This document shows, piece after piece, positions 26,730 to 58,476 of a stretch of DNA of 64,000 bases (positions within the stretch are counted from its first letter, which is position 1; each line of letters begins with the position of its first letter). Under the pieces are notes generated by a model. The model was given only the letters and a program-made list of their open reading frames with translations. It was not told the origin of the DNA and ran no database searches. Source of the stretch: Moringa oleifera. Taxonomy: Eukaryota > Streptophyta > Magnoliopsida > Brassicales > Moringaceae. The stretch spans positions 868,001 to 932,000 of the forward strand of contig JAJFZO010000695.1 of the NCBI GenBank assembly GCA_021397835.1. The letters are read 5' to 3'. Both the position numbers and the translations under genes were made by a program.

Positions 26730-27294
26730 TTTACAAGGTGTATATTGAGGGAGTTGACTGACAAGACCTCAAGCTCATATTCACCTCCATGCAAAAAATG
26801 AGAGCAACTGTGGGCTCCTTCCCCTGATCCAGAATCACATGCGAGCCCATTGTTTACTTCTTCAGAGGAACCTGCCTGCCGAACAAGGGTTGCCGAATTC
26901 TTCACTGCTTCAGACGAGCTGGATGAAGCAGTGACGGAAAATGAGGAGCAAAAAGGGCGAGGCCAACAGAGCTGTCAACTTCATAATGTTTCCTCTTCTT
27001 TCCATCAAACTTTTTGAACCCCACTAGCCTTTGTGGTAGTATAAGGCTGTATTTCACGGGGGAAGACAAAATCAGGAATGCTTCTGCAACTTGTGTGATA
27101 AAAATTGATCCCAATTCCAGGTCTCTACGCGCCCCTCAACCGTCGCGTTCAATTGGAGCAATTTACCTTCCAGCACGTATATCTTCTTTCCGTCGATGAC
27201 CAATGAGGCAACAACAATAAAACGACCTCACATTGTTTGAGAAGGCCTCAGGTTGTGGATGGCACTGAATCATACCGTGTGTGTCCTTCTCAAG
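26730..27294 (-). pseudogene. poly(A) polymerase C-terminal exon region, frameshifted
   Basis: After the acceptor TGTTAG (27,295-27,300) the frame reads LEKDTHGMIQCHPQPEAFS and onward to RRKE, matching the PAP RNA-binding domain (.ERDTHGMLQCHP...). The homology then hops frames: VLEGKLLQLNATVEG near 27,170, then INFYHTSCRSIPDFVFPREI near 27,060 (family: .HVRRR.IP.FVFP.GVRP), then GFKKFDGKKRKHYE near 27,000 (basic nuclear-localisation-like segment), then SSSSEAVKNSATLVRQAG and a tail with LHGGEYELEVL near 26,780. At least three frame changes within about 300 bases imply it is non-functional. Function in the family: adds the poly(A) tail to pre-mRNA in the nucleus. Confidence 0.8.
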
Positions 27295-27388
27295 CTAACA
27301 TTCAAATTCAATGGTAAAAGCGAGAGAGTATGTTGAAATTCGATGAACTAACTGATCCATAAATAAAGGGAAGTAAAAAAATATTCAC

Positions 27389-27553
27389 CTTCAATGTGAG
27401 CAGGAGAAGCCGGGATTCAATCCAGCCTTTCCAGCACCTCCACTCACTCACATTCTTGGCAGTTATGTCTATTTGCGAATAAGAATTGTCCACTTCAAAG
27501 AAAGGGAAAGGCACAAAAAGAGTAGTCCAGCCAGATTTATTTGCCTCCAATGC
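27389..27553 (-). pseudogene. poly(A) polymerase exon (start of RNA-binding domain)
   Basis: A clean 165-nt, 55-codon exon with acceptor TTGCAG and donor AAG/GTGAAT. It reads ALEANKSGWTTLFVPFPFFE then QIDITAKNVSEWRCWKGWIE and SRLLLLTLK. Plant PAPs have .MEANKADW..LFEPY.FFE..KNYLQ.DI.A.....L..W.GWVESR.RQLTLK. It is still in frame, with unusual changes at conserved positions (VDNSYSQ for .YKNYLQ). Its neighbours are the downstream exon region at 27,294 and a small upstream piece at 28,164-28,205. Confidence 0.85.
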
Positions 27554-28163
27554 CTGCAATAATCATGAAAAATAGAAGGTCAACAAGTCCAAAATCAGGA
27601 TTTTTCTAAAATTTATTATAGAATTAAAATCAGCATTTGGAGGTAGTAACAGTGAGTATAGAGTGGGAAACATGGTGCAATTAACAATTCTATATGTGAC
27701 GTCTAATTTATGATTTTTTTTTCTTTTTTTCAAGAAAAGATCACATGTTTCTTTCATTATGAAAAAAGTAGCAAGCAATTTAAGAAAGGCAGCAGACTCG
27801 GTTATAACAAAATAGTAAACTGTTTCAAGATATAGAAATTGACACAATCAAACTGACAAGATATAGCTCCCAAAAGAACACAAAGTCATGTCATGCTCGC
27901 CGGAGAATGAGGCATAAAGCATGGACAGCCACACATTAAAATTCTATTACAGACAAAAGAAAACTACCCCTATCCCTACGTAGAAGACTTGAGAATCAGC
28001 AATGAAATTTTCTAATCTAGACACAGTATGTGTTGAATTTTTGATAAATGAGATTAACTAACACGAGGAGAGAATAAGCTAAATATAAAATTATATGACT
28101 GAGTAGCAGTTTCATTGCGCTCTAAGGTTGAGAGTATTAAAAAGTGAGATTCCATTACTTAAC

Positions 28164-28205
28164 ACACATTTCATTACCTCTCTGAAATTCGCCCTTTAAG
28201 GCATC
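28164..28205 (-). pseudogene. poly(A) polymerase exon fragment
   Basis: The minus strand reads ALKGEFQRGNEMC followed by GTTAAG as donor. Plant PAPs have VMKGEFQRGNEICE directly before the MEANKADW segment, so this is the piece expected just upstream of the exon at 27,553. Upstream of it the match is lost: the preceding stretch does not read as the expected MPIITPAYP.MNS region. The short length keeps confidence moderate. Confidence 0.6.
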
Positions 28206-28432
28206 AGATGTTTCCGGCCTTCCATATTTTGCCTTGGATCCTATTGGGGATAGGGCTTAATACAATCCAAGGCTCGATGTGTGGCCCATCACTAAGGAGA
28301 CTTGACATCGCGTTTTTAAAGAGAGCATGGCTTGGATAATGAAATGTCAGGGAGCCACGTTGAATCATCGATAAATTAAAAAAAGATTAAGATTTGATTA
28401 TTAAAGATTTAAAAAAGTTTTAAAAAATATAT

Positions 28433-55579: not shown

Positions 55580-56930
55580 ACTACAAGGAAAAAGGCCTTG
55601 TAAAATAAATGGATTTATCAGATAAAAAAAGAACATTATGATATAAGCGATATAAAGCAAGGTTAGTAGTTAAAGGTTTTCAACGAAAGGAAGGCATTAG
55701 CTATACAGGGATAATCCCTAATGATTAATTTGACTATAATTAGAATAATACTTGGGTTAGTGGTTGAGAAAGATTTGCATCTACAACAAATAGATGTAAA
55801 AAATAGCTTTTCTTCATGATGACTTAGAAGAAGAAATTCATATGCACCAGCCAGAGGAATTTGAAGTCAAAAGTAAGGAAAAAATGGTGCAAACTTGTAA
55901 AAGTATGTATGCATTAAAATAAGCTCCTAGACAATGGTACAAGAAGTTTAGCAACTTCATGGGTGACAATGGTTTCTTAAAGTTCTAAGCAAACTATTGT
56001 TGTTATGTCAAGAGCTATGATGCCTCTTAAATTATACTATTGTTATATGTTGATGATATATTAATTATTGAAATTTAATTTGCGTGAGATAGAGAAATAA
56101 AAAGGTAAGCTTTCAAAGAAGTTTTTTAAAAAGAATATGAGTTTTGCTAAACAAATCTTTGGGATGAGAATCACTAAGAAAAAGGGGATCTCAAGTTATC
56201 TCAAGAAAAATATATTAAGAAAGTGCTTGCTAAATTCAAAATAAATGGTGCCAAATTAGTGAGCACATCTTTGGCTAATCACTTCAAACTATCCAAGTCA
56301 TTCTCCTTTTAACTGATGATGAGATTGCATATATGAGCAAGGTGCCTTATGTTTCTATTATTGGGAGTTTAATATATGCCACAGCATGTACATGACCAGA
56401 TATAGTATATGCAGTAAAAGTTATTAGCAAGTACATGAATAATCAAGAGAAACAACACTGGAAAATAATTAAATAGATTTTCAAGTATTTGAAAGGTATT
56501 GTTGACTTAGCTTTGTAGTTCAATAAAACATATTTGAGTTTGTATATTTATGTTGATGTTGATATGACTAGTGATATAAATAATAAAAAAATTACTACCG
56601 GGCATTTTTACACATTTGATGGTACTACAATCAATTGGATGCCTAAACTATAAAAGATAATTTATAGTTTAGACAGAATATATTGCACGTACAGAAGCAA
56701 TCAAAGAGATGATATGGCTATTATCTTTCCTGAATGAACTAAGGCATAAGTTTAGAAAAACCATATTACATTGTGATAGCCAAAGTATCATTTTTTTGAC
56801 AAAGAATCACGTGTATCATACTAAGAAAAAGCATATAATAAAGCATGTACAAGTTAAGTTCATAAAATCATTTTTGAAAGATGGTATCTTATCACTTAAA
56901 AAGGATAAAAGGAAGTCAAAATATAATTGA
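55580..56930 (+). pseudogene. copia reverse transcriptase / RNase H remnant (element E)
   Basis: Pieces include YKARLVVKGFQRKEGISYTG, LHLQQIDVKNSF-like text, EEIHMHQPEEFE, KCKLVKVCMH, LLYVDDILII-like text near 56,045, FGMRITKKKGISSYL-like text, AKFKINGAKLVSTSLANHFK. RNase H: YVDVDMTSDINNKKITTGHF, then TEAIKEMIWLLSFLNELRHK and ILHCDSQSIIFLTKNHVYHT (56,709-56,930 open), the usual copia end with the H..K+KHI+++ motif. Frameshifts and stops throughout. Confidence 0.8.
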
Positions 56931-57336
56931 TACATTGATGAAGGTTGTGACAATCAAGAAAATAAAGTTATGAGACTTCTTAACGGCCAATTAAGGAGTT
57001 ATGGTCATCGCAAGTGAATGAAATAATTAAGATAATAAATTAGCCTCCATGTGAGATTGTTAAGTATATGTGGAGACCAATTTACATAAAAGAGTTCTAG
57101 ATTTTTTTATAATAAATGGAGGGTTAAGAAAAAACAAGTTATCTCTTTTGTAATCCATTTTTATAGTGAAAATGTTTCCTACGATGATTATAAAGTAAAT
57201 GTAACTCTTAATTGAGGATGAACTACTATAAATTGTATGTTCTTGTCATTGTTTAACTTTTTTTTGTATTGATTATTATTGCTTTCGAGTTTTAGAGATT
57301 TGATATTTAATCCATCAACTAAGAATTTTGTAATTA

Positions 57337-57515
57337 GAGGCAACTTGTTTTCTCCCCGCCCTCCTTTTATTATAATAAAGTTTAAGATTCTTTATATACA
57401 TAGGCAGAAATCTCTCTTCATATAATAAAGTGAAGACCTAGCAATAAATATATGAAAACCCCAAAATATCTTTATATGTAAAGTGATCTTCACATGTACA
57501 CAGCTAACCAAAACA
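57337..57515 (-). repeat. 5' half of the 5' LTR of element F
   Basis: Read on the minus strand from TGTTTTGG at 57,515, it aligns with the start of E's 5' LTR (TTTACATA.A.A..TATTTT-GGGTTTTCA, CTTTATTATAATAAAAGG, AAAACAAGTT). It stops where E's 3' LTR ends, so E inserted within this LTR. The outer edge at 57,515 is the right border of the cluster in the PAP gene. Confidence 0.75.
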
Positions 57516-57862
57516 GATTACCGTACTCAAAGGAGTGAACCAATTCTTAAATGAGATATGTAACCTCAACAGAAAAACTCTAAATGCATGCCATGAGTAA
57601 ATAAAGGATGCGAGCATGATAAGCTGTCCATACAACAAGCATTCTTTGTTTAATCAAAATCTCATTAGACATGTGAGCCTGTACACTCTCCAGATGGATT
57701 AGGGCATTATGGCTACCACTGATTTCCAGAGACAAATTGCAGAAAGCAGGACAATAAGAAAAAGAAAATTGCATGAGAAAAGGACGTGTTGAACTATTAA
57801 AAAAAAGGAAAGAAAACAAAAGCAGCAGAAATGATACAGAAGGAATGCAAAGAGGCCCCTAC

Positions 57863-58476
57863 ACCCAATCTAAAAGAGCCAAACGTGAAAAGTTTAGCAT
57901 GTGCTTCTTCAATCAACTGCACATTAAATCCCTTATTGTTAGCAATCTCTTTCACCCAAATCTTTGACAATCTGTTCAATTTCCAAACATTATCATCAGA
58001 CATGAAATACTGAAACAATAAACCATCAAGCAACCTGGTTTAGTCTCCCAAGGACCTCCTCCCTCATTAAAGATTCTTCCAGACTTTCATTCAATCTTTC
58101 ATTTTCAAGAAATTGATCATCCAGTTTCCCATTACACATTGAGGAAAAGGCCAAAATAAAATTACTTAAAGCATCAATTTAGCCTCAAGGAAAGAGATAA
58201 GTACATTCATGTATATAATGGATACATAAAGTTGCTCAGTGGAAAATAATAGGTTATTCTGGAACCAAGAAAATGAACTATGTAACAGAGTCTAATACAA
58301 AAAAAAATGGCTTTGCTTTTCCCACCAGTCACAGGGAGCAATACCAAAAGTCATGGCAAGCAGAAACTAACCTTTTCTAATTCGTGACTTTTAGTCAAGT
58401 CGAGGTCGGATGGAAAGGCCGTAGATATTGGCTTCCTCAATCCGAATTGTGGCAGCACGTTGGCAGTGTGGTCCAT
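57863..58476 (-). pseudogene. poly(A) polymerase N-terminal exons
   Basis: Exon 1 (58,476-58,372, 35 codons) starts MDHTANVLPQFGLRKPIST and ends SHELEK/GTTAG. Exon 2 (58,112-58,035, 26 codons) reads FLENERLNESLEE ... MREEVLGRLNQ. Exon 3 (57,971-57,863) reads IVK then IWVKEIANNKGFNVQLIEEA and AKLFTFGSFRLGV. Plant nuclear PAPs have YGI..P.S...P...DL.....LEKFL ... REEVLGRL.QIVK.WVK ... EA.AKIFTFGSYRLGVHGPGADIDTL. The catalytic GPGADID exon should come next but is absent in the roughly 350 bases before element F. Lesions: the exon 2 acceptor reads AA, and one extra base follows IVK. An acceptor at 58,010 would keep frame but add 16 foreign residues. Confidence 0.85.

Follow-up and report, generated by a model that had tools for sequence, protein, structure and literature searches.

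A probable duplicated pseudogene of a PAPS1-type poly(A) polymerase in Moringa oleifera, with a block of nested retrotransposons in place of its catalytic core

On contig JAJFZO010000695.1 of Moringa oleifera (assembly GCA_021397835.1; contig C51 below), the first and the last exons of a nuclear poly(A) polymerase (PAP) gene lie some 29 kb apart, with retrotransposon sequence between them. This raises the question of whether the two ends are parts of a single gene, what became of the catalytic core that should lie between them, and in which order the damage occurred. The window analysed is the stretch of 64,000 nucleotides at positions 868,001–932,000 of this contig, coordinates are given in window numbering, and the genome searched comprises 279.5 Mb in 669 contigs. 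In the reading that we favour, with a probability of roughly 85%, a PAPS1-type nuclear PAP gave rise here to a duplicated (non-processed) pseudogene without its core, in whose place lies a block of long terminal repeat (LTR) elements; this classification follows from the introns, which are kept, together with the disabling lesions. A preliminary description of the window had proposed that a PAP gene was split by retrotransposons and deprived of its core by deletion. That account is partly supported, being right in outline and lacking the syntenic copy of the gene.

PAP exons and the missing catalytic core

The exon limits were set by comparison with L008, the PAP gene on contig C517. Exons 1–3 and remnants of exons 8–10 are found on one strand (minus) and in the correct gene order (Table 1), as had been described for the two ends. 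The low-coordinate end, placed earlier at 28,205–26,730, has moved: it now begins with exon 8 at 28,252 and is solid to about 27,023, the tail toward 26,730 giving only a marginal match (27.3 bits; E value 0.096 at 26,833–26,657). The peptide of exons 1–3 matches the Pfam family PAP_NTPase (PF20750; E value 1.2e-15) and that of exons 9–10 matches PAP_RNA-bind (PF04926; E value 7e-6). Against 28,100–28,440 the frameshift-aware profile of exon 8 scores 56.9, compared with a mean of 27.1 and a maximum of 44.7 in 60 shuffles. Introns 1/2, 2/3, 8/9 and 9/10 are retained at the positions seen in L008.

The part that is absent runs from exon 4 into exon 8, of which only the 3' remnant is left; the matching interval in L008 spans about 3.5 kb. 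The missing part includes the nucleotidyltransferase core (GPGADID motif and central domain) expected of a working enzyme. The preliminary description had not found this core and had suggested a translated search of the gap. Such a search by tblastn over 28,261–57,860, employing 121 PAP queries, of which 120 were database proteins and one was the model of L008, again yielded no core exons, the best match of 25.0 bits being equal to that on the reversed sequence; weak matches at E values up to 50 numbered 777 on the real and 459 on the reversed sequence. Frameshift-tolerant profiles of exons 4–8, run over 28,253–57,862, scored 27–43 on both strands and 27–42 on two reversed controls, while the positive controls reached 96–509 (L007), 97–510 (L009) and, in the divergent L010, 62–155. 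When each exon and strand was compared with 40 shuffles, the real score was equalled by 3 to 40 of them (ten tests). Two single candidates were rejected, both inside the gypsy element G1: exon 6 on the plus, i.e., wrong, strand (score 42.7, equalled by 3 of 40 shuffles; 73–150 in the paralogues) and a weak chain match of exon 8 at 32,004–31,912 (about 23 bits), which is at control level and was set aside as chance. A genome-wide search for an orphan core with PAP_central returned six matches, all of them in four other PAP loci (on C559, C517, C563 and C18). The catalytic core has been lost from the window gene.

The 113 bp between exon 8 and the adjoining element E1 (28,253–28,365) were also evaluated as a continuation of exon 8. 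In the profile comparison their score was equalled by 28 of 100 and by 94 of 500 shuffles, and DNA alignments to L008, L009 and L007 were equalled by 355, 97 and 36 of 500 shuffles, respectively; in a separate alignment all three scores likewise lay under the shuffle maxima. Despite a likeness of short words to the eye, an exon 8 running on up to E1 is supported by neither comparison.

The remaining exons carry lesions of their own. The acceptor of exon 2 reads AA in the window versus AG in L008, exon 3 has one nucleotide more than its counterpart, and the reading frame of exon 10 is broken. In exon 8, TAG replaces the tryptophan codon that precedes the DPR motif in the paralogues, and a net 67 nt are deleted (counted on the two sequences). 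Without its acceptor at exon 2 and with a disrupted frame in exon 3, the stretch of exons 1–3 no longer gives one continuous reading frame by way of the usual splice sites. Given these small lesions, the insertion of the elements need not have been the first damage. The window locus would make no polymerase, and the C517 copy presumably serves the role.

The syntenic copy on C517

The ten-exon model of L008 reads open (modelled exons at 2,708,040–2,714,127 of C517). The named matches of its protein, among the 120 listed of 5599, are angiosperm PAPs with an identity of up to 78%, and names among these 120, e.g., nuclear poly(A) polymerase 1, suggest that L008 is of the PAPS1 type. In exons 2–3 the window copy is identical to L008 at 36 of 59 residues, to L009 at 30 and to L007 at 33; in exons 9–10a the corresponding counts are 40, 37 and 36 of 75. 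The nucleotide identity of the two ends to L008 is 0.667 and 0.680, versus 0.576–0.600 to L009 and L007. L010 was left out of these counts and was weaker in the tblastx comparison. To judge from these identities, both ends are of one gene lineage, closest to the probable PAPS1-type gene L008. The preliminary description had asked for a PAP paralogue elsewhere and had named an origin of the ends from different paralogues as fatal to its account; other PAP loci do exist, the one on C517 with an open model, and it is this same gene to which both ends are closest.

Upstream of PAP, C51 and C517 share an OGFOD2-like gene, in like orientation and order over seven aligned exon pieces. This common neighbour makes the C51/C517 PAP pair a syntenic duplicate, and the duplication may have been whole-genome or segmental. 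The L008 gene thus has the exon limits and the upstream neighbour of the window copy and is its closest paralogue at both ends, while the window copy is without exons 4–7, keeps little of exon 8 and is damaged in splicing, in frame and by a stop. The presence of the syntenic twin would explain why the loss of the window gene was tolerated. Downstream matches at C517:2,722,857 (47 aa, 42%) and 2,726,517 (42 aa, 45%) may be repeats and were not counted as synteny.

The flanks of the locus have further features. The stretch 59,218–61,461, situated between exon 1 of PAP and the OGFOD2-like gene, has many self-matches in both orientations (about 58–66%). Below the window, a 184-aa open frame on the minus strand (L056; C51:858,001–868,000) has, by eye, a cysteine/histidine pattern that may be RING-finger-like.

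Table 1. Positions of the PAP remnants, the retroelement parts and the neighbouring gene in the window
Feature	Position	Strand	Evidence or remark
PAP exon 1	58,476–58,372	minus	35 codons, open, ATG present; tblastx to L008 and L007; profile score 62
PAP exon 2	58,112–58,035	minus	tblastx, profile; 3' splice site lesioned
PAP exon 3	57,971–57,863	minus	profile score 122; GT next at donor position
PAP intron 3, remaining 5' part	57,501–57,862	minus	genome search: repeat matches only at 57,502 and below
PAP exon 8, 3' remnant	28,252–28,164	minus	frameshift-aware profile
PAP exon 9	27,553–27,389	minus	55 codons, open; profile score 173
PAP exon 10 remnant	27,294–27,023	minus	start 27,294–27,184, then 27,124–27,023 in another frame
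Stretch between E1 and exon 8	28,253–28,365	minus	113 bp, matched to neither
E1 (copia-like), 5' LTR part	28,366–28,709	plus	LTR start about 28,366; primer-binding-site-like TGGTATCAGAGC at 28,631
Gypsy G1, nested in E1	28,710–39,595	plus	LTRs 28,722–30,340 and 37,964–39,581
E1, internal part past G1	39,600–40,174	plus	L031–L033
Deletion junction E1/G2	40,175–40,204		about 30 nt matched to neither
Gypsy G2 (Tat-like by layout)	40,204–48,980	plus	5'-truncated in pol, start about 40,205; 3' LTR end apparently intact
Copia E3, rest of 5' LTR and internal region	48,981–52,693	minus	cut before 3' end; SH3_retrovirus at 50,420
Copia E2, inverted, inside E3 LTR	52,694–57,335	plus	LTR pair; gag_pre-integrs at 54,316; 3' LTR without last bases
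Copia E3, first part of 5' LTR	57,336–57,500	minus	LTR start TGTACATG at 57,500; L025 and L026 LTR matches
OGFOD2-like gene, 3' exons	62,062–64,000, on to about 71,648 past window	minus	PF25238, E value 8.3e-50

The retroelement block and its proposed history

The block between the two PAP ends extends over 29,135 bp (28,366–57,500, limits set in this analysis), of which 29,102 bp were assigned to five decayed LTR elements. A block of this kind had been described at 28,433–57,515; the block stands with revised edges, the low one moved after three extra reference copies had been aligned. The low edge of E1 at 28,433 was rejected, as four of six reference loci (L031, L059, L060 and L061) match in one piece from 28,364–28,378; of the other two, L033 has a separate piece from 28,371 and L032 matches only from 28,449. 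The LTR of E1 starts with CATCGATAAATT in the window and with TGTCGATAAATT, or close to it, in its relatives.

We take E1 to be copia-like from its LTR and the primer-binding-site-like word. Pfam analysis of 10 stretches placed SH3_retrovirus (E3) and gag_pre-integrs (E2) above the cut-offs, domains that we assume to mark copia elements; five stretches were without a match. The matches below cut-off in the same set were RVT_1 in G1 (at 33,391; 24.2 bits versus a cut-off of 29.6) and two families of unknown function (DUF2992 and DUF4219). These two, like sub-cut-off matches to SepSecS and EXOC6_Sec15_N, were disregarded. The gypsy and Tat labels of G1 and G2 are likewise our assumption, made from their layout; the two elements match at 61% in pol.

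The nesting is readable from the reference loci. In L032 only about 15 nt separate the sequences that flank G1 in the window; in L031 and L033 the distance is several hundred. Beyond G1, all three of these loci stop matching at 40,174, yet match one another further on, so that E1 is cut at this point. On the other side of the junction, seven of eight G2 reference loci begin at 40,196–40,208 and the eighth at 40,477. Excluded from these eight were L044, which is the locus itself, and L049, the second G2-family copy of the window, which matches from 40,218; the match limits of L050, L051 and L052 are nearly identical, and these may be copies of one insertion. At its 3' end G2 terminates in TGATA at 48,980, a word found at the same place in the four relatives compared. 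Both reference loci of E3 stop at 48,982–48,988, where the end of the G2 3' LTR lies. E2 and E3 are of the same family, with internal regions 77.6% identical.

Three further observations concern the structure of the elements. The inverted insertion of one copia within the LTR of an older member of the family has made 48,981–56,623 a 7.6-kb imperfect palindrome with 73.8% identity. G2 contains an array of 43-bp tandem units 3' of pol (42,911–44,114). The second G2-family copy of the window (3,840–13,440, minus strand) is about 64–70% identical to the G2 of the PAP block.

From the nesting, E1 is older than G1 and E3 is older than E2. The cut ends of both E1 and G2 indicate that sequence was lost between them, and a G2 that looks whole at its 3' end, next to an E3 that is cut, points to an insertion of G2 into E3. 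In the history that we propose, copia E3 would have entered PAP intron 3 and the copia-like E1 would have entered at or near exon 8; G2 would have entered E3. One deletion with its ends inside E1 and G2 would then have taken the 3' part of E1, PAP exons 4–7, the beginning of exon 8, the 3' end of E3 and the 5' portion of G2. G1 inserted into E1, and E2 into E3. The preliminary description had regarded two copia elements, which we take to be E1 and E3, as the points of entry into PAP introns. A copia-like element on the low side and a copia on the high side are indeed the outermost elements, and E3 does lie in intron 3; for E1, the nearest recognisable PAP sequence is exon 8, 113 bp away, and its entry may or may not have been intronic. 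The core was, as proposed there, lost. The two copias are not fused to each other, however: E1 joins the 5'-truncated gypsy G2, whose 3' LTR end lies at the cut end of E3.

Time of the loss and alternative readings

The PAP pair C51/C517 has a synonymous divergence (dS) of 2.12 and a nonsynonymous divergence (dN) of 0.27 over 134 codons, one of which, at the start of the exon 2 piece, is a non-coding splice-acceptor triplet; with exon 1 included, the values are 2.65 and 0.33 (169 codons). For the OGFOD2-like pair, dS is 1.75 and dN 0.13 (313 codons), so that the dS values of the two pairs are similar, all of them lying near saturation. A further PAP pair, L007 and L009 (on C559 and C563), has a dS of 1.56 and a dN of 0.08 (134 codons) and may go back to the event that produced the C51/C517 pair. 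When L007 and L009 serve as outgroups, dN is 0.203 on the window branch and 0.071 on the L008 branch, an excess of 0.132 (bootstrap 0.059–0.216; 1000 codon resamples). The old duplication (dS about 2) and the low dN argue that selection maintained the copy through most of its history and was relaxed late.

The LTR pairs of the inner elements differ by Kimura two-parameter distances of 0.278 in G1 (1595 sites) and 0.252 in E2 (277 sites), i.e., 0.139 and 0.126 per lineage. A substitution rate of 7e-9 was used as the second of two LTR clocks, and methylated elements may have a higher mutation rate. At 1.3e-8 and 7e-9, the LTRs of G1 and E2 would be about 10 to 20 million years old. The faster of these rates is quoted for grasses in PMC7251063, which also notes known faults of LTR dating. 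The dN excess of 0.132 is close to the per-lineage LTR divergence, an agreement that has few codons behind it and is suggestive only.

A tentative reading, to which we give somewhat less than an even chance, is that the retroelements killed a long-kept second PAPS1 gene, i.e., a datable late loss by insertion and element-to-element deletion and not an early neutral decay. In this reading the gene was conserved through a dS of about 2 and lost constraint only within a span that matches the age of the nested elements. It is also quite possible, though we would not call it probable, that small lesions had already killed the gene before the retroelements gathered as passengers in unconstrained DNA. 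The lost splice site, the extra nucleotide, the stop and the 67-nt deletion all lie outside the element block, and the near equality of the dN excess with the divergence of the inner elements does not separate the order of events. Against the passenger sequence, E1 and E3 are older than G1 and E2, so that the earliest insertions may have come before the bulk of the decay, and nothing favours a long dead period free of elements.

Several points weigh against the pseudogene reading as a whole, or against the history attached to it. The preference for L008 in amino acids is small at both ends. Synteny is carried by a single upstream gene; on the downstream side, the 10 kb compared past the PAP stretch on each of C51 and C517 gave no gene match. 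The 113 bp adjoining E1 are attributable to neither exon 8 nor E1, and the dS values suffer from the saturation already mentioned. The single deletion is only the most parsimonious choice, the 3' end of G2 was judged intact from four relatives, and no target-site duplication was recognised by eye in the flanks, those of G1 being degraded and the other ends of E1, E3 and G2 gone. To these must be added the chance of an assembly artefact, a wrong join at repeats with the core left on a piece that is missing. The gap does consist of repeats with many listed relatives. Self-matches aside, however, these relatives (from searches that skip very common words) are 64–89% identical (89% over 62 bases), which is too distant for confusion over long overlaps; moreover, the genome-wide PAP_central matches include no orphan core, the exons carry independent lesions, and there is no N in the window. 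We regard such an artefact as very improbable. Two ends from two different PAP genes, joined by a rearrangement, would agree with the modest L008 preference and with the intervening repeats, which are of a kind able to mediate rearrangement; since a single paralogue is closest to both ends in protein and DNA, and exon limits and order are those of the syntenic copy, this is very unlikely. Continued synthesis and use of a truncated product, e.g., from exons 1–3 alone, is scarcely credible, given the lost exon 2 acceptor, the broken exon 3 frame and the raised nonsynonymous rate on the window branch.

A duplicated pseudogene of a PAPS1-type PAP with its core lost at the retroelement block therefore remains the reading that we prefer. 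It leaves the knowledge of PAPs or of retroelements unchanged; this is ordinary gene loss, well preserved and new only as an instance. As such it offers a clear worked case of the loss of a redundant plant gene, in which the twin is kept, the nesting order is readable and the deletion junction is placed within about 30 bp.

Among plant PAPs, a lineage-specific extra PAPS1 gene has been reported from Vitis (PMC2778134); there, too, a second PAPS1-type gene would have arisen by duplication, though it is an additional gene, while in Moringa the second copy is dead. The same source lists two putative intronless PAP pseudogenes of grasses, Os04g49870 and Sb06g026810. These are likewise dead PAP copies, without introns, whereas the window copy keeps its intron positions and its syntenic neighbour. 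The nesting of LTR retrotransposons is known from plant genomes (PMC7251063), and the copia and gypsy elements inserted in one another here show nothing essentially different, with one same-family inverted insertion in an LTR. A further parallel is the fractionation of maize, where, according to PMC2893956, one duplicate was lost after genome duplication via short deletions attributed to illegitimate recombination. In both cases one member of a syntenic pair is lost and a short deletion lies within an exon (67 nt here); in Moringa, by contrast, about 3.5 kb, to judge from the span in L008, were lost as well, with junctions inside retroelements.

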